A DNA stretch of 45,002 nucleotides, from the IMG/VR virus record IMGVR_UViG_3300031566_006752, positions 1-45,002 of that record, one strand, 5' to 3'. Position 1 is the first letter of the stretch, and each line of letters begins with the position of its first letter. The position numbers and the translations under genes were made by a program. The notes under the pieces were generated by a model. That model saw only the letters and a program-made list of their open reading frames with translations. It was not told the DNA's origin and did no database searches. The DNA is from a virus. Shown piece after piece: positions 3,427 through 42,708 of this stretch.

Positions 3427-4599
3427 TTACTTTATTTTTAAAATGTGTTTACAAATTTCAATTTCTTTTTCATCCCCGAGGTGTTTACCATTGGTATCAG
3501 AGAGTTTAATGGTTGGAGTCCAGTCGTCGCCCTCGGGCTTCGCCTCTGTCATCTTTATTACCATGTTTAATGGCTTTAATCCAACATCATTGGTGAAGTT
3601 TGTGCCAATGCCGAATGAACACATGATCTTTCCTCTGCAGTACTCTTTGATTTCGACTGCTTTTTCAGGATTTAAACTATCTGAGAAGATAATTACTTTC
3701 GATTTGGGATTTATTCCCAATTTATTGTAATGTGCGATGGTTTTATCCACAAATTCTACGGGATCTCCACTATCCTGACGAATTCCATCATAAAGTTTGG
3801 CAAATTTCGTTTCAAATGACTTGAAGAAAACATCGGTCGTGAATGTATCTGATAGCGCAATACCAAGGCTCCCCCTATAAACTTCAGACCAGTGTTCCAT
3901 TGCAAGTGAATTGGCCATCTTGTAACCATACTTTGCGGCATGAAACATGAACCACTCATGGGCTTGGGTGCCCAGCGGTTTGATGTTATTTAGAAATGCA
4001 AGGTATACATTAGATGTTCCTGTGAAGTTTTCATTTCTTCCATTGTTAGCAAACTGCGCAACAACCTCTGCATGGTTATCAAATGATTCTCTTCGGCGAG
4101 TTCCTAAGTCTCCATAATGTATACCATTCATACGGAAGAGTAACATCTTTTGGGCGTTGTTTTTTTCACGAGTCTGAGCATCCCATTTTTTACCGCCTGT
4201 CATCTTAAAATACAATTCAGAAATGGCAGCCATTAAATTTGTTTCCCATAGGATTGTACGGTGCCAATAACCCTCTATTGAAACGTCAAGGTCAGAACCA
4301 GACTGAATGATACCAACTTCAGAAGAATCAAATCTGTATCCGTATAAGAAATCAAGATACGTTGGTTCAAGGAAACCATTACACCTCGTATGGAGAAATA
4401 TTTTTTCATGTTTAGTCATTGCGAGGGCTTCCATTTCCTTTACTTCTTGACGAAGCGCTTCTCCAAACCCCTCCGGAAACGCAGTTTTTCCCCTATTGAT
4501 AAACTTATAGCGTACCTTCGCTCTCGGAAAGAGCTTGATCACTGCTTGTTGCATTGTTAATTTATAGAGGTCGAGATCTAAAATGCTTTTTATAATCAT
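3427..4599 (-). CDS. pncB: Nicotinate phosphoribosyltransferase
   Basis: 390 residues, full length for the family. It converts nicotinate and PRPP to nicotinate mononucleotide in the Preiss-Handler NAD+ pathway. Diagnostic segments are DLYKLTM near the start, GYWHRTILWETNLMAAISEL, GTSNVYLA followed by GTQAHEWFM, DTFTTDVFF, YDGIRQDSGDP and SDSLNPEKA. A nicotinamidase and an NAD synthetase lie 5-8 kb downstream in the same orientation, so this phage carries three of the four steps from nicotinamide to NAD+. Confidence 0.9.
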   Translation of the reverse strand: MIIKSILDLDLYKLTMQQAVIKLFPRAKVRYKFINRGKTAFPEGFGEALRQEVKEMEALAMTKHEKIFLHTRCNGFLEPTYLDFLYGYRFDSSEVGIIQSGSDLDVSIEGYWHRTILWETNLMAAISELYFKMTGGKKWDAQTREKNNAQKMLLFRMNGIHYGDLGTRRRESFDNHAEVVAQFANNGRNENFTGTSNVYLAFLNNIKPLGTQAHEWFMFHAAKYGYKMANSLAMEHWSEVYRGSLGIALSDTFTTDVFFKSFETKFAKLYDGIRQDSGDPVEFVDKTIAHYNKLGINPKSKVIIFSDSLNPEKAVEIKEYCRGKIMCSFGIGTNFTNDVGLKPLNMVIKMTEAKPEGDDWTPTIKLSDTNGKHLGDEKEIEICKHILKIK

Positions 4600-8473: not shown

Positions 8474-9002
8474 CTTTTAATAATTTATCTAGGTGTTCCC
8501 ACATTTCTTCAAATCTTCCATCACGCAAATTCTTTGAGAAAAATTCATGTTCATCACGGTACATGTTTATCATTGAAGATTTTTCGGTAACGGAAAATGT
8601 AACGTTAGCAATTCTATCACATAGCTTGATGAAAGTACAGTGCTTGTATGCTTTTATACCATCATAATACGTTTTGTTAGCTCTTTCTTTTCGTGTCTTT
8701 CCCTTTTCGTTACAACACACATAAGAATATTCCGCAATTGTTTTGTTGGTTTCGTCTTTTACGTTATTGTAGGTTTCTCTTGCGTCTTCAATGATATCAT
8801 GACACCAACACCCGCCGATTACATCAGATCTATCGATCTCAGGTATTAGGTGAATGAACTCTATCGCTGTATCAACTGTCATCTGTAAGTGATACGCATA
8901 GGGATACAAAGCATTGTAGTGATGATTTACTTCTCTATGCCGTCTTATCGCATAATCTTTTGCTATCTCATCTACTGAGAGGAATTCTCTGTATTCTGGC
9001 AT
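8466..9002 (-). CDS. HD-domain phosphohydrolase, (p)ppGpp-hydrolase-like
   Basis: 178 residues. The metal site is visible: H22 and a neighbouring histidine, CWCHDIIEDA (HD followed by ED, as in SpoT/MESH1 hydrolases), and KLCDRIANV, which matches the ADRLHN segment of that family. It may degrade alarmones or another nucleotide. The insert around KGKTRKERANKTYYDGI fits the RelA/SpoT hydrolase layout. The exact substrate is uncertain. Confidence 0.75.
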   Translation of the reverse strand: MPEYREFLSVDEIAKDYAIRRHREVNHHYNALYPYAYHLQMTVDTAIEFIHLIPEIDRSDVIGGCWCHDIIEDARETYNNVKDETNKTIAEYSYVCCNEKGKTRKERANKTYYDGIKAYKHCTFIKLCDRIANVTFSVTEKSSMINMYRDEHEFFSKNLRDGRFEEMWEHLDKLLKDG

Positions 9003-9469: not shown

Positions 9470-9545
9470 CGCAAAACATTGATTCTATTACTAAGAGATC
9501 TAATTGTCTCGTTTCCCAACGTCTTATAAATTCTTCTTTATTCAT
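9462..9545 (-). CDS. 27-residue peptide, duplicate of the next gene's start
   Basis: It reads MNKEEFIRRWETRQ and then 13 unrelated residues before TAA. It overlaps the end of the nicotinamidase gene by 8 nt and the next gene by 8 nt. It is probably a truncated copy of the downstream gene rather than a functional protein. Confidence 0.4.
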   Translation of the reverse strand: MNKEEFIRRWETRQLDLLVIESMFCDD

Positions 9546-10185
9546 ATAAATGAGAATAGAATTCTTCTACAACCACCCCAGAATCATCAAATTCCAAAAG
9601 TACATCATTAACATCTTCAGCGATTGCTCGTGTTCCTTCAATGAATATTCTCGTTTCATACCCAAAATACGCGGCATCTTTTGCCGTATCTTTAACGCAG
9701 TAATCAAGAGCGAGCCCAACAATGTCCACAGCTCTAACTCCCTTTTCGATTAGGAATTCATGGAGCCCAGTATTTTCATGACCATCTCCAAACGCTCCAT
9801 ACGGGTGGCAGTGGCTTTCAATTCCTTTCTTGATGATATAAAATTCTCCGTTTATTAAACTAAAGTCAATATCATCATGTAACTCAGCCCCTTTTGTATT
9901 CTGTACACAATGTATAGGCCATAGAACTTCAGGCTTCCCGTGTATCTCCATCTCTTCAAACGGCTTCTTCCCCGCGTGCGATGCCGCGAAATAGATATTA
10001 TCCGGTTTGTGCCAATCTTTCGTAAAAATAACGAGGTCATATTTTGGTAGTAATTCATTTATCACTGGAACTATCTTATCTCCTTCTTTCACAGCTAACG
10101 CTCCGCCCATCCCGTTATCGTAATCTTCTTTACTTGCGGGCATAAAATCATACTGTGCGTCAACCACTATCAGTGCTTTCTTCAT
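9538..10185 (-). CDS. pncA: Nicotinamidase
   Basis: 215 residues, isochorismatase fold. The catalytic triad is D9 (VVDAQYDF), a lysine at 119/120 (IIKKG) and C163 (GLALDYCVKDTA). Metal ligands are D57, H59 and H70 (KDWHKPDN...ASH). It hydrolyses nicotinamide to nicotinate, which PncB (3427-4599) then uses. It is part of the phage NAD+ salvage set. Confidence 0.9.
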   Translation of the reverse strand: MKKALIVVDAQYDFMPASKEDYDNGMGGALAVKEGDKIVPVINELLPKYDLVIFTKDWHKPDNIYFAASHAGKKPFEEMEIHGKPEVLWPIHCVQNTKGAELHDDIDFSLINGEFYIIKKGIESHCHPYGAFGDGHENTGLHEFLIEKGVRAVDIVGLALDYCVKDTAKDAAYFGYETRIFIEGTRAIAEDVNDVLLEFDDSGVVVEEFYSHLYE

Positions 10186-10230: not shown

Positions 10231-10533
10231 TTAGTTTTCATTATCAAACGTAAATTCTTCATTACAGTGCGGACACAACCACGTTTCTTTCCATGTGTAT
10301 AATGGTTCCGGGGCAATGGCGTATTTGCTGATAATGTGAGTGTGGTGACCACTTACGTGTTCTATCTTTGGATAGTATTCAGGCGGTACGGGTAATTCAG
10401 TTTCTACGATATCATCGTGGCACAAATCAAACACCTGTTTTCCATTATCGTCTAACCGATAATACGTGCCATCAAATTCGGCTTCATCCCATCCGCATTG
10501 TGGGCAATTATATTGCTCTAAGTTAAACTCCAT
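10231..10533 (-). CDS. Zinc-ribbon protein
   Basis: 100 residues from the ATG at 10533, which overlaps nadE by 11 nt; a longer frame would overlap by 89. CPQCG near the start and CPHC near the end form a zinc site spanning the protein. A metal-rich HHTH stretch lies between. Function unknown. Confidence 0.65.
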   Translation of the reverse strand: MEFNLEQYNCPQCGWDEAEFDGTYYRLDDNGKQVFDLCHDDIVETELPVPPEYYPKIEHVSGHHTHIISKYAIAPEPLYTWKETWLCPHCNEEFTFDNEN

Positions 10534-11347
10534 CAATTGCAGATTTTGGTATGTTAAAGGGGTTATTCCTTTTAAACTCAGTTCGATGGTATCTTTGAAG
10601 AACCGGATCATCTAAATCGCCAATTCCCGATGCAAGGTGAGACTGTAATCTTAAATCGACGAGTTTGTATCCATCTCTTGAAGATCCCTCCCATGTTGGT
10701 AAAATTTGGTCAAGATCAGTCTTTGAAATTCCAAGACCATCAGTTGCCTGGCATTCAATACATTCTTTTAGGGCTTTTTTCTGGAAATCAAATTCTGATT
10801 CATTTTCCATGATCCAATCTGCCATTTCATAAACCTCAGTTTTCCAGAGGTTCTGAATCATTCCATAATCCCCAACATCTCCATGCAACGTCCAAAAACC
10901 AAGAAGATATTCCGTATAATTATCTGTTGATAAAACCATACCTTTATGAATTTGCGCCAAATCATAAAGATAAATCATCCGTAAACGAGCCTTAATGTTT
11001 CCCCTGCGAATCTTCTCGTTGGGTTCTTCAACGTCCCATCCCTCTGGTCCGGTTACTCCCCATATGCTCGTAAAGGCTGATCCCAATTCATATACATCAT
11101 CAAATGTATGGCAAAAAGCTTTTCCAACCAGTTCTCCTCGATCTACTTCATCAATTCCATTTCCAAGAGTGATGCTTCGCCCATGCAATTGGATTCCCAA
11201 TTCGTCGCATACGGGTTTTGCTAATGCAGCACATAGCGTACTGTCAATCCCACCAGATATTCCCATTACAAGGGATTGAATTTTGTTTTTTTCAATGTAA
11301 CTTTTTAATTCTGCCCTGATGTTTTGTGTTGCTTTTTCGTAGTTCAT
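10523..11347 (-). CDS. nadE: NAD synthetase (ammonia-dependent type)
   Basis: 274 residues. The ATP-pyrophosphatase loop is GISGGIDST (residues 29-37). GNIKARLRMIYLYDLA and STDNYTEYLLGFWTLHGD match the deamido-NAD binding segments. It amidates nicotinate adenine dinucleotide to NAD+. There is no glutaminase domain, so it would use ammonia. It starts 4 nt inside a small upstream gene (ATGA). No adenylyltransferase (NadD/NadM) was seen in the window, so the middle step would fall to the host or to a gene elsewhere. Confidence 0.9.
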   Translation of the reverse strand: MNYEKATQNIRAELKSYIEKNKIQSLVMGISGGIDSTLCAALAKPVCDELGIQLHGRSITLGNGIDEVDRGELVGKAFCHTFDDVYELGSAFTSIWGVTGPEGWDVEEPNEKIRRGNIKARLRMIYLYDLAQIHKGMVLSTDNYTEYLLGFWTLHGDVGDYGMIQNLWKTEVYEMADWIMENESEFDFQKKALKECIECQATDGLGISKTDLDQILPTWEGSSRDGYKLVDLRLQSHLASGIGDLDDPVLQRYHRTEFKRNNPFNIPKSAIDGV

Positions 11348-14725: not shown

Positions 14726-16402
14726 TTATATCTCGATAGCGTTTATAGCATCGATGACTTCGTTGATATTTACTTCCATTTGTGGAATTTTTTCGTAAAT
14801 ATCTTGAGTGTATCCGTAAAGACGGAATACCTTTTGTCCACCCTTTATAGGAGCGGTTGTTGAATATCCAACAACATCAATCAAGTAAACGTATGGGGTT
14901 CCAAACTTGTTTACATACTTCTTGAAGTTGTCTTCAACTCTACTGTATCCATCTTGCATGTCAGAGATTATTACAACTCTGTCATACTGAGTGTTATTAT
15001 CTGCGAACAGATTGAAGCAAGACGCAAAGTCAGTACCGTGACTACACTTTCCGTTGTAAGAAGTAAACTTCTTCTTCAGAGTGTTAACAGAATCAGTTGG
15101 GTTCCATCCAGTAATCTTTTCAGACCATGATGCAAAGTGATAAACATCACCTCCGATGCCCTTTGCAAAAGTAGCGGCAACTAGTGCAGCCTTCTCAGCA
15201 GGGGTTGAGCTGGATCTCTTACCACCTGGAAGCGCAACGCCTCTACCAGTCATAGAACCAGATGTATCGAATACAACTGCAGTTCTACCTTCAGGAAGCA
15301 ATTCCTTAAGGTTTGGAATGGAAGCTTCATACGCCTTTCCAAGCGCATCGGCAACCTTAGCCAATTGACGACCGTTGAATTCAAGAAGCATAACTTCAAG
15401 AGCAAGGTCAATTTGGTGTGGCCATACAAGTGACTTCTTAATGAACTTAGGTTCAATAAGCAATTCACACGCAGCATCCAATAGAGGAGTATCATTAGTC
15501 TTAAGAATGTTTCTCAAGTTACGAAGCAATGCCAAGTAACCAATCTTCTTAGTCTTGATAAGTTCCGCATAGTTTTCAGTCTTTTGTTCAACGAGAACCT
15601 TTTCAGCTTCCGCCTTAGTGATTTCGCCTGACTTAACTGCTTCTGCAACCTTCTTACCAGTTTCAGTGTTCTTATCTTCAACAGTATTGAACTGCTTTAG
15701 GATTCCAAGAACAAGAGCACGAAGTGCAGGAACTCTTACAGTTCCTTCAACAACTTCGTTGAATGTGTCCTTTTCGAACTTTGTACCAACAATAGCCTTG
15801 ATGTAATCTGCAGTTGGTACATCAACGTAGCCATTCTTTTCAGTTGGAACTGGGTGAACAGCGTTAACGATGTCAACCAAACTCAAAGTGCTAGACTTCA
15901 TTTGGTACTTAGCAAGTTCGTACGCATCAGCGTTTTCAATAGCGCCCTTGAAACCTCTCTTCATGGCACCTGGAATGGTATTGGTCTTATTCTTCGCACG
16001 GTAGCACGCAAGAATTTCCATCATATCGTCAAGACGATAGATTATACCACCTTCGTTGCCCTTACGGTTTCTCTTAGAGAAGAATCTCTTTCCAAGTTCA
16101 TCACCAGAAAGGTGAGGCAATAGATTAACCGCTCCAACGTGGGTAACGGATCTTTGACCGAATACGCTACGTGCATAGACGAGTGCCTTTGCAGCAAAGA
16201 GCTTATCTTTCTTCGCGATGGTATCAATAACTTCGCGCAAACGAGTTTCGCGTTCTGATTCCTTTTCATAAAAGGTATTCTGGATTCCTGTGGATAGGAT
16301 TCCTACGAGTTCATGTTCTGGTCTTTGGGTTTGACCGGATCCACCTTGGTGAGTAGTAGTCTTTTGAACTACAGGTTCTCTCTTTTGATTGTACTTAGAC
16401 AT
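14726..16402 (-). CDS. Ro60/TROVE-family RNA-binding protein
   Basis: 558 residues, full length. An N-terminal TROVE helical-repeat ring (about residues 25-365; note RSVFGQRSVTHVGAVNLL and LLRNLRNILK) is followed by a von Willebrand A domain with the metal site DTSGS (379-383) and later SHGTD and ISDMQDG. Ro60 proteins bind Y RNAs and misfolded RNAs. A strong Shine-Dalgarno (AAAGGAGG) precedes the ATG, unusual among neighbours, and the gene is visibly less AT-rich. It is flanked by terminators at 14692-14717 and 16442-16476, with candidate partner RNAs just upstream. Confidence 0.9.
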   Translation of the reverse strand: MSKYNQKREPVVQKTTTHQGGSGQTQRPEHELVGILSTGIQNTFYEKESERETRLREVIDTIAKKDKLFAAKALVYARSVFGQRSVTHVGAVNLLPHLSGDELGKRFFSKRNRKGNEGGIIYRLDDMMEILACYRAKNKTNTIPGAMKRGFKGAIENADAYELAKYQMKSSTLSLVDIVNAVHPVPTEKNGYVDVPTADYIKAIVGTKFEKDTFNEVVEGTVRVPALRALVLGILKQFNTVEDKNTETGKKVAEAVKSGEITKAEAEKVLVEQKTENYAELIKTKKIGYLALLRNLRNILKTNDTPLLDAACELLIEPKFIKKSLVWPHQIDLALEVMLLEFNGRQLAKVADALGKAYEASIPNLKELLPEGRTAVVFDTSGSMTGRGVALPGGKRSSSTPAEKAALVAATFAKGIGGDVYHFASWSEKITGWNPTDSVNTLKKKFTSYNGKCSHGTDFASCFNLFADNNTQYDRVVIISDMQDGYSRVEDNFKKYVNKFGTPYVYLIDVVGYSTTAPIKGGQKVFRLYGYTQDIYEKIPQMEVNINEVIDAINAIEI

Positions 16403-16476: not shown

Positions 16477-16518
16477 GTAATCCAAATAATCGTAATAAAA
16501 TGGAATATAAAGTTAGTC

Positions 16519-16603
16519 GAGAAAATTGGTGAGAGTTTTTCTGTCTGGCTTTCGCCTGATCTTTCTTATGGTTGAAACGAAGTATCTCTTACCTTACTAC
16601 AAC
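16519..16603 (-). ncRNA. Candidate Y-like RNA element, copy 1
   Basis: On the minus strand it starts GTTGTAGTAA and ends AATTTTCTC, exactly as copy 2. Inside, arms GGTAAGAG and CTCTCACC pair (one A-C mismatch). The variable middle holds a GGC-GAAA-GCC tetraloop hairpin. A boxA-like GTTCTTTA lies 18 nt upstream and a strong terminator about 43 nt downstream. It sits next to the Ro60 gene, as bacterial Y RNAs do. The Y-RNA identity is inference. Confidence 0.5.
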
Positions 16604-16640
16604 AGTGCTTTTCAATATTTTAAAGAACAAAAATTTTGTT

Positions 16641-16702
16641 GAGAAAATTGAGCAGAGTATTTTTTCATTTTTCCTACGAAGTAACTCTATTCTTACTACA
16701 AC
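16641..16702 (-). ncRNA. Candidate Y-like RNA element, copy 2
   Basis: Same ends as copy 1. Its arms are GAATAGAG and CTCTGCTC. Against copy 1 one outer pair changes G-C to A-T and another A-C to T-G, so pairing is partly kept while sequence changes. The middle is shorter and lacks the tetraloop hairpin. Confidence 0.5.
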
Positions 16703-16713
16703 TAAATTTTATA

Positions 16714-26560: not shown

Positions 26561-26588
26561 TTAATTAAAAAAGTAGAGAAAATTTAAG

Positions 26589-26671
26589 AGTGTATTGAGG
26601 ATTTGAACCCCGTGTCCCGAAGGACGCCTGTTTTTCAGACAAGTGTGTATACCAATTTCACGATGAAACAC
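26589..26671 (-). tRNA. Class II tRNA with GAA anticodon, degenerate
   Basis: Loop CTGAAAA in stem CTTGT/ACAGG gives GAA (Phe), but a long variable arm (GTCC-TTCG-GGAC) and D-arm AAATTGG follow the Leu plan. Acceptor and T-stem contain mismatches. It may be a Leu tRNA with altered anticodon. Confidence 0.55.
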
Positions 26672-26693
26672 TACTTAGTTACTACTACTATTG

Positions 26694-26778
26694 TGGAACC
26701 AAGAGGACTCGAACCTCCGACCTCTGGTATTTCACACCAGCGCTCTACGCGTATTGCTACCATCTGAGCTACGGTTCC
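26694..26778 (-). tRNA. tRNA-Phe(GAA) with 12-nt D-loop insertion
   Basis: Acceptor GGAACCG/TGGTTCC, anticodon arm CTGGT-GTGAAAT-ACCAG, T-arm GGAGG-TTCGAGT-CCTCT. The D-loop is 20 nt instead of 8: GCAATACGCGTA follows the conserved GG. Confidence 0.8.
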
Positions 26779-26857: not shown

Positions 26858-26930
26858 TGGGGAGAGGCAGAATCGAACTGCCGACACATGGATTTTCAGT
26901 CCATTGCTCTACCAACTGAGCTACCTCCCC
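26858..26930 (-). tRNA. tRNA-Phe(GAA), normal
   Basis: Acceptor GGGGAGG/TCTCCCC, anticodon arm ATGGA-CTGAAAA-TCCAT. Standard cloverleaf. Confidence 0.93.
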
Positions 26931-26934
26931 ATAG

Positions 26935-27014
26935 TGGGATGAGACGGAGTCGAACCATCACAGCCAAGGCGGGGGTTTTACAGACCCTTGGGCTCACCCA
27001 TGCCCAGCCATCCC
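26935..27014 (-). tRNA. tRNA-Tyr(GTA)
   Basis: Class II. Acceptor GGGATGG/TCATCCC, D-stem GGGC/GCCC, loop CTGTAAA. One mismatch at the foot of the anticodon stem. Confidence 0.85.
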
Positions 27015-29734: not shown

Positions 29735-29860
29735 TGGGGAAGGTTGGAGTTGAACCAACTGACTTTAGTATTTCAAACTAACGTTTAACCGATGAAACTC
29801 TATGCGTTACTATGAAGAAATTCAAGAAAATTGCGAGAGCATTTTTAAAACTTCTTCCCC
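29735..29860 (-). tRNA. tRNA-Phe(GAA) interrupted by 53 nt after the acceptor strand
   Basis: Acceptor GGGGAAG (29860-29854) pairs 7/7 with CTTCCCC (29742-29736). D-arm GTTT-CATCGGTT-AAAC, anticodon arm TTAGT-TTGAAAT-ACTAA and T-arm GTTGG-TTCAACT-CCAAC are perfect. Between base 7 and base 10 there are 55 nt instead of 2. The 5' strand begins 4 nt after tRNA-Gln, so the placement is tight. Confidence 0.75.
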
Positions 29861-29864
29861 ATTG

Positions 29865-29937: not shown

Positions 29938-29976
29938 ATTTGCACGTCTTTCCGTGCTGTCAATCATTTCGATCCC

Positions 29977-30091
29977 AAATGGATGTTTACCGCTTACACT
30001 AATTGAACTTTAACGACAATGCTAATGATGCATTGTGCGGTTCAATGATGGATTCGAACCATCCTCCCATTATTTTGAGATGTCCATTCAG
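29977..30091 (-). tRNA. Candidate circularly permuted tRNA 1
   Basis: On the minus strand the 3' part comes first: AATGG, T-arm GATGG-TTCGAAT-CCATC, acceptor ATTGAAC (30046-30040). After 31 nt holding hairpin CAATGC/GCATTG comes the 5' part: acceptor GTTCAAT (30008-30002), TA, D-arm GTGT-9nt-ACAT and CCATT. Acceptors pair 7/7 and CCATT/AATGG 5/5. The break falls in the anticodon loop, so the anticodon is unclear. An alternative local hairpin CATTT/AAATG exists in the 5' part. Confidence 0.55.
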
Positions 30092-30164: not shown

Positions 30165-30200
30165 ATTACAAACTGAGAAAATTGACTAGAGATATTTTAT

Positions 30201-30285
30201 CGTGCTACCAATTACACTAATCCCGCATAAACATGGAGCGGGACCCAGGATTCGAACCTGGACTAATCGTTCCCAAAACGAAGTA
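30201..30285 (-). tRNA. Candidate circularly permuted tRNA 2, anticodon TGG
   Basis: Minus-strand order: anticodon arm TTCGT-TTTGGGA-ACGAT, T-arm CCAGG-TTCGAAT-CCTGG, acceptor GTCCCGC (30244-30238), then TCCA and 7 nt, then acceptor GCGGGAT (30226-30220), TA, D-arm GTGT-AATTGGTA-GCAC and G. Acceptors pair 7/7 (one G-U). The loop is identical to both normal Pro tRNAs. The break lies between D-arm and anticodon arm. The bases after the acceptor read T-CCA, as if a CCA end were encoded. The D-arm itself resembles tRNA-Gln. Confidence 0.65.
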
Positions 30286-30304
30286 ACTCTTGGTCGTTAC
30301 TACA
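30286..30304 (-). other. Hairpin before permuted tRNA 2
   Basis: GTAAC-8nt-GTTAC on the minus strand directly precedes the anticodon arm. It could mark the 5' processing site. Confidence 0.35.
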
Positions 30305-30312
30305 GTCTATAG

Positions 30313-39747: not shown

Positions 39748-40317
39748 TTATCTCTTCGCCCAGGGCAACCGTGTAATAAAATCATAATAGGATCGAATTA
39801 TTTGATCGTGACCCCACGCCCAATCGTAATGATGCAAATCTTCAATGTGTACCCATTTCATTTTTCCTACTTCTCCTTCAATCTCGTTATTATCAGCGTG
39901 TAATACAGGAAACCACCTTTGTTTAGTGTATAAACCATATCTCAGTGATACATTTTGTTTATTGTTATCGGTGGGATTTGTTTGAACGTGCCATGGTTGA
40001 TCGATGTTAACGCTATAAACCTGAATAGCGTCCTCAATCATATTGGATATATTGATGCCAACTTCTTCCCAGGTTTCCCGTATGAGCGCATCTGTACCTG
40101 ATTCATCATAATCAAGATATCCAGCGACGTTATTCCATAATCCGATATTATCTGCCGCATTTTTACCTCGTTCAGAAACAAGTGCGTATGGTCCTGGACT
40201 ATCAAAATCTATAACATCTATAAGTATTACACCATTGACAGCAACGCTTCTGCTTTCCCAGATTATTCTTCCGTCTTTAACTTTGTGCCATTTATTTGGC
40301 GTATTATTGAATGTCAT
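39748..40317 (-). CDS. Nudix hydrolase
   Basis: 189 residues. The Nudix box is GYLDYDESGTDALIRETWEE then VGI (66-88). Such enzymes cleave nucleoside-diphosphate linkages; the substrate is unknown. It overlaps the ligase gene by 4 nt. A link to NAD+ metabolism is possible but not shown. Confidence 0.88.
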   Translation of the reverse strand: MTFNNTPNKWHKVKDGRIIWESRSVAVNGVILIDVIDFDSPGPYALVSERGKNAADNIGLWNNVAGYLDYDESGTDALIRETWEEVGINISNMIEDAIQVYSVNIDQPWHVQTNPTDNNKQNVSLRYGLYTKQRWFPVLHADNNEIEGEVGKMKWVHIEDLHHYDWAWGHDQIIRSYYDFITRLPWAKR

Positions 40318-41612
40318 ACGTCTCTCCCTTCATTATAAATTGCTTTTACTGTTGGAAACCTTAAACTTATTTCTCCGTGTTGATTTACGGTTTCTTCAAA
40401 ATATTGAACCGTTATTTCCTTGCCCACAATTCTGTCAGGGTATTTGTAGAAATACTGGCGTTGTTCAATTGAAAATCCAGATCCAACCGAAACTGGGTAT
40501 CCTTTATGTTCTATCCAGACACTCCTGACCATATCCTCGGTGACCTCCAGGCCGTCAACTATGATCCTAAATGGACCAATATCAATGTCCTGTACAATGT
40601 ACTCGGCGTCAAAAAACTGCTTACATTTAAGAAGATTGTTTGATCTCTTTCCCTCATATGGAGCGTCCTTACGTATCATAATTCCTTCCCATCCATTCTT
40701 TTGGGCCATTGTATTTAGTTCGGTCAAGTGTTCACCTGACTCAACTTTCCATTGTTCAACGTGGCTAAGAACATCTCCATAATAATTATCCATCATAAAC
40801 CTGATAAACTTTTGTCTTTCTGATGAAATTTGAGAGCTGTACTTCTTTTGAAAATGATCAAGATCTAACAAATCAAATATCTTAAACCGGGGATTTTGAA
40901 TGGTGTGATCTTTTTTATTGTATTCCTTTAAGATAGCCTGGAAATCTTCGTCTCCGTTTTCGTTTACTATACATAATTCACCATCAAGCACAGTATCTAT
41001 TAAATTTAAAGGTAACAATGCTTCTTTTACTTTATCAAGTGTAAGAAATTCATTACCGTTTCGAGAGTATGCTTTGATGCTTCCGTCGTGATCGATAATT
41101 ACAATACATCGAACTCCATCAAGTTTCCTACTAGCATACCAAGTATCCTTTTTAAAATCCACCTTCTTCACCATCTTCTCATCATACTTATTTGCCAACG
41201 CGACATCAAATGTAGGAATAAGATCAGGGAAAACTTTGTTTATGATTTTCTCAGACACCCTCGTTTTAAGGTTACGATCAAATATATTAAGAATGATTTC
41301 TTTATATTCAATATTATCTCTGATAAATGCATTGACATCGGCAATAGCTTCGTGCCCCGTTATTCTTCTATTTCCAAGATCGTCCAATAAATCTAGAATA
41401 TCTTCATGAGATTGACGTGATACCAAATCAGATCTTTTGATTATATTCTTTGGGGTTACATAATATTGTACGAATGGGTTATGAGTAGCTTTCAAAATGG
41501 CCTTTATGAATTCTGTATCATATTCAGGCTTTGAAAGTGTAGCAGTTTTTTCGAGTGTTGAATTCGAAACATTGAGCTCATCAATGAGCTGTTTGAGAAG
41601 ATTAAATTCCAT
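40314..41612 (-). CDS. ATP-dependent DNA ligase
   Basis: 432 residues. Motif I is SRKLDGVR (adenylated Lys163), motif III region VLDGELCI, motif IV EGIMIRK, motif V LLKCK. An N-terminal helical domain (1-140) and a C-terminal OB domain follow the T4/cellular ligase plan. An RNA ligase reading is less likely. Confidence 0.85.
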   Translation of the reverse strand: MEFNLLKQLIDELNVSNSTLEKTATLSKPEYDTEFIKAILKATHNPFVQYYVTPKNIIKRSDLVSRQSHEDILDLLDDLGNRRITGHEAIADVNAFIRDNIEYKEIILNIFDRNLKTRVSEKIINKVFPDLIPTFDVALANKYDEKMVKKVDFKKDTWYASRKLDGVRCIVIIDHDGSIKAYSRNGNEFLTLDKVKEALLPLNLIDTVLDGELCIVNENGDEDFQAILKEYNKKDHTIQNPRFKIFDLLDLDHFQKKYSSQISSERQKFIRFMMDNYYGDVLSHVEQWKVESGEHLTELNTMAQKNGWEGIMIRKDAPYEGKRSNNLLKCKQFFDAEYIVQDIDIGPFRIIVDGLEVTEDMVRSVWIEHKGYPVSVGSGFSIEQRQYFYKYPDRIVGKEITVQYFEETVNQHGEISLRFPTVKAIYNEGRDV

Positions 41613-42708
41613 ATCTTTGTTTTCTTATTTTTAGTAACAGATCATCTAAAAGTTCTTGATCTATGTCTTTTGGTAAATCACATTCATCATAAACCTTATC
41701 GAGTTCTTCGATCATCGCCTCTGCTTCTTTAACGAGTTTGTCATATTCATATTCTCCTCGTCTTATCTCCATAAGAATTTTTATTTCTTCATCGGGTCTG
41801 CGAACGTTGATAAATTTGATCTTTGGGATTTCCAATGCAACATTCAAAAGACGAAATGTATGCATCATATTTTTGGAATCGTAATTTTTTCCGTGAGACT
41901 TATTCATCTTAACACGATCAGGGTTTCTTTCTTTCAGCCACGTTTGATATTCCTTATATCTTTTGCAATGTGTTGAGTACGCGTCCTTATTAAATATAAG
42001 GTATCCAATAACCATTAATCCTTTGGGAATGGAAGTTAACTGTACATCATTTGCTGTAACAGGATCAGAAACTATGCCGCTTCCTTCGTGTCTACGGTGA
42101 AGTTGATACATTGCATAAACATCATGTGCGTGGTCAACTTTTGCTAAACCAAAATCTCTTTGATCTATAGTATCTAACGTTCCAGATTGGTAGTACCTGT
42201 TAAAGTATTCATTAAGAGTGATTGAACCTCCTTCTTGAAGAACATAACAGAAGTCCAATACATTCTTACGAGTCATCTGTGATTCTTCCCAGTTCATCTT
42301 CTTGTTATACCCTTTGGCCTTTTTGATTTGATCGATAGCATATCCAGCAAAGGAGTAACGACACGTTTTCGTTAGAAATTTTGATGCGTGATAAGAAATG
42401 GATCCCCATTCTGTAGAATCGTGTTGAACACAATCTTCCGGGGCAAAAAGCAGTTCAAGAACTGTTGGGTTGTTTGTGCGAACAAGAGCAAGAAATCTAC
42501 TAAGTTCGTAGTAGACGATATCATTTAAGTCGTCTGCAACCTGCTCAACATACCCATGTTTGAGTATGTCTTCCAACGGTTGCACAAAAACTCCTCGCAA
42601 ATCTGTGTCGGATGTCGGTAACGATGTCCCATATGCATGGGATCCCATTATTGCTTCGAAGATAATTAAATCTTCGTCTTTTAAATATTGTATCGTGTAG
42701 TTTTTCAT
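41602..42708 (-). CDS. RlaP-family nucleotidyltransferase (predicted RNA repair)
   Basis: 368 residues. The polymerase-beta-type site is GSHAYGT (22-28) with SDTDLRG (33-39); NNPTVLELLF and YSFAGYA follow as in RlaP/MJ1435-like proteins. The family is predicted to act in RNA repair, adding nucleotides to cleaved RNA. It overlaps the ligase gene. It fits the tRNA-rich theme of this phage. Confidence 0.8.
   Translation of the reverse strand: MKNYTIQYLKDEDLIIFEAIMGSHAYGTSLPTSDTDLRGVFVQPLEDILKHGYVEQVADDLNDIVYYELSRFLALVRTNNPTVLELLFAPEDCVQHDSTEWGSISYHASKFLTKTCRYSFAGYAIDQIKKAKGYNKKMNWEESQMTRKNVLDFCYVLQEGGSITLNEYFNRYYQSGTLDTIDQRDFGLAKVDHAHDVYAMYQLHRRHEGSGIVSDPVTANDVQLTSIPKGLMVIGYLIFNKDAYSTHCKRYKEYQTWLKERNPDRVKMNKSHGKNYDSKNMMHTFRLLNVALEIPKIKFINVRRPDEEIKILMEIRRGEYEYDKLVKEAEAMIEELDKVYDECDLPKDIDQELLDDLLLKIRKQRYGI

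Follow-up and report, generated by a model that had tools for sequence, protein, structure and literature searches.

A tRNA array on the minus strand of a phage genome contains, at positions 30091-29957, a unit in which a T half is placed before a D half. Such an order raises the question of whether the locus is a circularly permuted tRNA gene, as the initial annotation had proposed, or an RNA that imitates a tRNA. It was addressed within the window (the whole 45,002-nucleotide stretch of the virus record IMGVR_UViG_3300031566_006752) and by comparison with other viral and bacterial sequences.

Read along the minus strand, the order is tRNA-Thr(UGU), CTGAATGGACATCTCAAAATAATGGGAG, a T-arm, ATTGAAC, a spacer, GTTCAAT, the dinucleotide TA, a D-arm, CCATTTGGGATCGAAATGATTGACAG, a small hairpin, and tRNA-Gln. 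The 28-nt 5′ flank (30064..30091), which provides the 5′ strand of a closing stem, starts one base past the discriminator base of the upstream tRNA-Thr and includes CTGARTGRACATC, common to a counterpart in a related phage (L305). It is followed by a perfect T-arm, GATGG-TTCGAAT-CCATC (30047..30063), which lies in no ordinary tRNA, the 3′ acceptor strand ATTGAAC (30040..30046), a 31-nt spacer devoid of CCA (30009..30039), the 5′ acceptor strand GTTCAAT (30002..30008), and TA with the D-arm GTGT-AAGCGGTAA-ACAT (29983..30001, the D-arm itself occupying 29999-29983). The 3′ strand of the closing stem, CCATT-T-GGGAT-CGAAATGATTGA-CAG (29957..29982), completes the unit, and GATTGACAG within it is again common to L305. 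The tRNAs called by ARAGORN include neither arm. Every letter of the reversed arrangement reported by the initial annotation, with ATTGAAC after the T-arm and GTTCAAT before the D-arm, is present on this strand, and the spacer, described there as a hairpin, can fold through ACAATGC/GCATTGT at 30039-30009.

The acceptor match had been judged hard to ascribe to chance, and this judgement holds. The minus strand has 40 T-arm/D-arm pairs with a separation below 130 nt. Only two of them reach 7/7 acceptor pairs, namely the focal element (all Watson-Crick) and a second one, element X, at 30261/30226, while ordinary tRNA-tRNA junctions reach at most 6/7 in the same scan. A set of 31 viral loci was also fetched through a T-arm plus D-arm pattern, leaving acceptor pairing free. 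There, at least 6/7 acceptor pairs were found in 10/15 cases when the arms lay outside ordinary tRNAs and in 0/15 when an arm lay within one, after exclusion of one RNA called tRNA-Cys by ARAGORN, by all signs a misassignment. Acceptor covariation in alignment A2 is very high but partly circular, since its members were chosen at ≥6/7 pairs; it was therefore set aside, and the unselected set and position-matched counterparts were relied on instead.

The focal counterpart lies in L305 (IMGVR_UViG_3300044580_000271), between the tRNA-Gln and tRNA-Pro of a related array, and also starts directly after its upstream tRNA. It reads CTGAGTGAACATCGTC...GAGGG-TTCAAAT-CCCTC ATATCGG ttcataaa CTGATAT TAGTGTAACGGTAAC...GATCAACACGATTGACAG, with a spacer of 8 nt. 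Its acceptor strands, ATATCGG and CTGATAT, form 7/7 pairs; compared with the window, both partners differ in four pairs and a single partner in one, whereas two pairs are identical. The end motifs CTGARTGRAC / GATTGACAG are common to both elements, and are known from this one counterpart only. Since complementarity is kept through four double changes, the reversed order of the focal element is probably under selection, as far as can be judged by sequence comparison. In this single counterpart, the 5′ part alone does not form a complete tRNA and the acceptor match is not lost, the two outcomes that the initial annotation had named as telling against its proposal. Another match, in L004 (IMGVR_UViG_3300031565_014856), is 99.98% identical over 21 kb, hence the same virus, and gives no independent evidence. 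A blast search of the focal element against phage records returned no match.

Beyond this pair, the order T-arm, acceptor hairpin, D-arm recurs across many viral contigs. Element X (30170..30311, minus strand; acceptor GTCCCGC/GCGGGAT, with TCCA in the spacer), presumably the first candidate of the initial annotation, has counterparts in four other phages (LR745206, G034, G025, and G037), with acceptors CACCGGC/GTCGGTG, ATCCAGC/GCTGGAT, ATCCCTA/TAGGGAT, and TTCCCCG/CGGGGAA, all complementary at 7/7. Neither of its arms falls in an ordinary tRNA. Searching IMG/VR with two narrow DNA patterns derived from X gave no match. L009, L010, L013, L014, L018, L027, and L030 carry related permuted elements whose stems are AGGATAC/GTATCCT or AGGTTCT/AGAACCT and in which CAGCAA is conserved.

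How the two ends of the focal element pair is less clear-cut. The initial annotation had completed an anticodon stem with CCATT (29982-29978) and AATGG (30071-30067) and had placed the break of the tRNA in the anticodon loop. The letters are there, but a second AATGG copy, in the 30087-30083 region, competes for CCATT, and the anticodon stem is not established. In the minimum-energy fold, a 9-bp stem, CTGAATGGA/TCCATTTGG (30091-30083/29983-29975), closes the whole unit, and the anticodon place is taken by a hairpin with a 6-nt loop. An alternative pairing sets 5′ CTG, an AATGGAC loop, ATCTC, and AATGG against CCATT-GGGAT-loop-CAG; its ATCTC/GGGAT helix is matched by ATCGT/ACGAT in the L305 counterpart. 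Compared with shuffles, the focal fold has a modest advantage (z −0.7 to −2.1 by choice of ends), and the closing stem has p 0.006 with the ends fixed and 0.16 over the whole flank. What stands of the permuted tRNA is the swapped halves, the acceptor pairing, and the conservation with compensatory changes; the reading as a tRNA gene with its break in the anticodon loop is not supported.

Parts of the focal ends also occur elsewhere. An odd tRNA-like element at 29514-29404 (minus strand), with a mismatched acceptor and an Rfam tRNA score of 28.5 bits, partly shares the focal end motifs (CTGAAT..AC and GA.TGACAG). TGACAG followed by a hairpin with a GAAAGA loop is found at 29957-29942 (minus strand) in the window, at 16548 (minus) in L297, at 9489 (minus) in L301, and at 8600 (plus) in L030. 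The stem of this hairpin varies compensatorily, and it is repeatedly placed before tRNA genes, perhaps as a leader or processing element. Because TGACAG with this hairpin also stands alone before tRNAs, CTGARTGRAC/TGACAG was dropped as a candidate second Ro motif.

The closest described layout is that of YrlA. This bacterial Y RNA, which functions together with the Ro protein Rsr, has its two ends paired, bears a D-arm, a T-arm, and an acceptor arm, and mimics the tRNA elbow (PMC8394870). In phages, both Y RNAs and Ro proteins are known in outline (PMC7765460, PMC7824862), including jumbo-phage TROVE proteins with a tRNA-like partner (PMC7824862). Like YrlA, the focal element has the order T-arm, acceptor hairpin, D-arm, and a Ro gene is encoded in the same genome. 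Its ends may form a 9-bp stem, which is modest against shuffles and has end motifs kept in one counterpart. Unlike YrlA, the element is part of a large tRNA array at a distance from the Ro gene, and has a long spacer hairpin and none of the YrlA consensus motifs GGCGAAUGC/CUUGUCGCC. Many of its phage relatives also carry a canonical anticodon arm, whereas in a sample of bacterial YrlA, 1/21 passed the test for an anticodon hairpin with a 7-nt loop, some others having 3-bp versions. When bacterial genomes were scanned with the YrlA stem motif, RNAs were returned that show this order, flanked by GGCGAATGC and CTTGTCGCC; bacterial YrlA copies that are broken in the D-loop and have an entire anticodon arm were noticed in L061, L111, L153, and L163.

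Covariance searches have to be read with caution. At low scores, the Rfam YrlA model (RF02553) also responds to tRNA junctions and matches most control genomes, and only end-to-end matches were used. Two L021 phage RNAs align end to end, at 44.8 and 43.4 bits, so even clear phage relatives stay below the threshold of 69 bits; X reaches 18.5 bits, a score close to those of tRNA-tRNA junctions, and the focal element gives no match. With a core covariance model built without window sequences, X scores 56.9 bits and the ordinary junction 26906-26963 scores 43.2 bits; the family model does not rank the focal element above ordinary junctions (17.9-30.9 bits). As ordinary junctions also match, the core model alone is no proof of the focal element. 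The latter is not filed in RF02553, because it gives no match to that model and does not carry the stem motif seen in its sisters; by analogy, it would nevertheless work like YrlA.

The Ro gene of the window (14726..16402, minus strand) encodes a full-length protein of 558 aa with a TROVE domain (Pfam TROVE, 9e-8), which matches the TROVE proteins of PDB 9l5y/9kop (6e-15) and is 40% identical to the Ro of LR745206. A Ro gene is also found in G009, G010, G013, G019, and LR745206, all of them carriers of permuted elements. Across 79 viral Ro loci, the 157 kb lying within 1 kb of Ro contain 20 permuted elements, whereas the remaining 1,170 kb contain 8, and 724 kb surrounding the control gene RlaP contain 1; these kb bases are approximate, as Ro ends were set by default for some loci. 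No Ro gene was found in the examined contigs of several phages with permuted elements, among them L009, L010, L013, L014, L018, L027, and L030 (one contig being 184 kb long).

Directly upstream of the Ro gene are two Y RNA-like genes (16500..16708, minus strand) with a TAGTAA / AATTTTCT stem motif. In X, this motif takes the form AGACTG-TAGTAAC / AATTTTCT-CAGTTT, which consists of an outer helix, the internal loop TAGTAAC/AATTTTCT, and an inner helix, and the paired ends clearly form a long stem. Element W (26570..26694, minus strand) is a tRNA-like RNA of ordinary order enclosed by the shared stem (AGTAG-TAGTAAC / AATTTTCT-CTACT), with a counterpart in L295 that has a different outer helix. 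A Phe(GAA)-like tRNA of ordinary order (29742..29861, minus strand) has the shared stem, closed by a small loop, inserted between its 5′ acceptor strand GGGGAAG and its D-arm; L305 carries a counterpart with the same insertion (GGGGAGA...TCTCCCC). The motif is present in X, W, the Phe-like element, and the two RNAs upstream of Ro, and is absent from the focal element.

None of 2,000 simulated sequences of the same dinucleotide make-up brought the motif halves as close together as in the array, and about a dozen copies, from the window and its relatives, keep 5/5 outer pairs with varied helix sequences. A pooled permutation test gave p 0.001, a value that covers the whole regex list, chance matches included. 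There is therefore good support for X and W being Y RNAs that belong to this phage. The stem is attached at the junction of D-arm and anticodon arm in X, which is permuted; it replaces the acceptor end in W, of ordinary order; and it forms an extra arm in the Phe-like element. It is thus the attachment point of the stem that makes the order permuted.

The focal element is accordingly well supported as a tRNA mimic of YrlA layout. This reading relies on the YrlA layout itself, the conserved acceptor pairing, the Ro gene, the clustering at Ro genes, the motif-sharing sisters, and the short acceptor loops of relatives, which cap the acceptor with 2-6 nt, some of them UUCG-like; with loops of this size, many relatives cannot give a tRNA 3′ end without being opened. 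Taken as a whole, the claim that it is a YrlA-like, Y RNA-type phage tRNA mimic, and not the precursor of a decoding tRNA, is given a probability of roughly 70%.

As a mimic, it would be transcribed together with the tRNA array, and its spacing suggests that processing at the 3′ end of the upstream tRNA-Thr probably frees its 5′ end. The ends would then pair into a stem bearing an anticodon-arm-like hairpin, the T-arm, the closed acceptor hairpin, and the D-arm, and the T and D loops could dock like a tRNA elbow. The permutation would follow from a tRNA-like body hung on the stem at the junction of D-arm and anticodon arm. Judging by the company of the element, the stem may be held by Ro or a Ro-containing complex, while the tRNA-like body might engage tRNA-binding factors during infection, such as tRNA-modifying enzymes, PNPase, or host tRNA-cleaving nucleases that it would decoy. 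A decoy of anticodon nucleases has been raised as a possibility for YrlA (PMC7790460).

Several features of the wider family bear on decoding. CCA stands directly past the 3′ acceptor strand in 21/85 permuted members, and in 19 members the anticodon place is occupied by a hairpin whose 7-nt loop always has U33 and a purine at 37 (19/19); shuffles would yield about seven such hairpins, and the 19 are related members, not independent events. The loop of X at this place, TTTGGGA, is Pro-like. The permuted phage RNAs thus copy tRNA more fully than the described YrlA domain, and may have a role in translation or as anticodon-nuclease decoys. The focal element and its L305 counterpart have neither a 7-nt anticodon loop with U33 nor an encoded CCA. 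Assigning a specific anticodon by running ARAGORN on rotated halves was rejected, as many artificial joins were accepted with different anticodons.

A true circularly permuted tRNA gene, whose transcript ends would be joined and whose spacer would be opened by RNase P and a 3′ processing enzyme to give a decoding tRNA, is an unlikely account of the focal element. The permuted tRNA genes of algae and archaea also have the 3′ half before the 5′ half, complementary acceptor strands, and a sequence between these strands, of 1-74 nt in known cases, but their ends form a bulge-helix-bulge; bacterial viruses are not among the carriers reviewed (PMC3978253). A reversed order conserved with compensatory acceptor changes, a window spacer long enough for excision, the CCA and anticodon loops of family members, and the RNA-repair nucleotidyltransferase family protein RlaP encoded in the window (41602..42708, minus strand; Pfam RlaP, 5e-21) would all suit such a gene. 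Nevertheless, inspection of both pairings of the focal ends (ATCTC/GGGAT, AAAAT/T, and AATGG/CCATT, or nine continuous pairs) revealed no bulge-helix-bulge, defined as a 3-nt bulge, a 4-bp helix, and a 3-nt bulge, and the L305 counterpart has none either. The lack of CCA and of a suitable anticodon loop in the element and its counterpart, the 2-6 nt acceptor loops of the family, and its link to Ro genes also argue against it, and the candidate RNA ligase beside RlaP turned out to be a DNA ligase. Two-piece (circularly permuted) tmRNA likewise has a permuted tRNA-like domain, but the focal element has no tag reading frame or tmRNA signature, and neither ARAGORN nor Rfam matched a tmRNA in the window.

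About equally improbable is a closed-stem tRNA-like RNA that does without Ro binding, for example, a decoy of tRNA-cleaving nucleases or a sponge for tRNA-modifying enzymes. The missing Ro stem motif is what this alternative would predict of the focal element, but Ro and motif-bearing sisters keep it company in the same genome and array. The RNAs of this phage group could, lastly, be both Y RNAs and complete tRNAs, with a whole cloverleaf joined at one of several points to a Ro-binding stem, many having a decoding-competent anticodon loop and CCA, and part of them being cut, joined, or charged for translation or tRNA repair. This proposal is speculative, and no better placed than the two before it; if true, these would be the first permuted tRNAs of bacterial viruses. 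Least probable, and already largely contradicted, is that the locus holds the remnants of two adjacent tRNA genes, each having lost the half that the other kept, their acceptors matching by chance or common origin: the array is crowded and has other irregular tRNAs, but the L305 pairing and end motifs, as well as the contrast between orphan arm pairs and those involving ordinary tRNAs, speak against it.

Read as a mimic, the apparent permuted tRNA becomes a companion of the Ro protein that the phage encodes. Mimics of this kind are present within phage tRNA arrays, and tRNA-finding programs overlook them or report them as broken tRNAs. Relative to the literature examined, what is new is that one array can hold several such RNAs, which frequently have a canonical anticodon arm, and that a single Ro-type stem is grafted onto tRNA-like bodies at different points. 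Their copy number, the strict U33/purine-37 rule, and the varied stem attachment would link Y RNAs, in a way that can be tested, to the supply of tRNAs by phages and to host defence through tRNA cleavage.

The minus strand of the window holds further unusual features. At 29594-29515, a Gln(UUG)-like tRNA with a D-arm insertion is missed by ARAGORN. A D-arm/acceptor half, GGCGGGG TAGCTCAGCCCGGACAGAGC, and a T-arm/acceptor half, GGCGGTTCGAATCCGTCCCCCGTC, lie about 190 nt apart at 25099-24890 and constitute a tRNA with a long insertion. The tRNA at 18403-18329, called Pyl (anticodon CUA) and also present in the related phages L295, L297, and L299, is a possible amber suppressor. Finally, the same strand encodes an NAD metabolism set, made up of a nicotinate phosphoribosyltransferase (3427-4599), an NAD synthase (10523-11347), an isochorismatase-type hydrolase (9538-10185), and a NUDIX protein (39748-40317).
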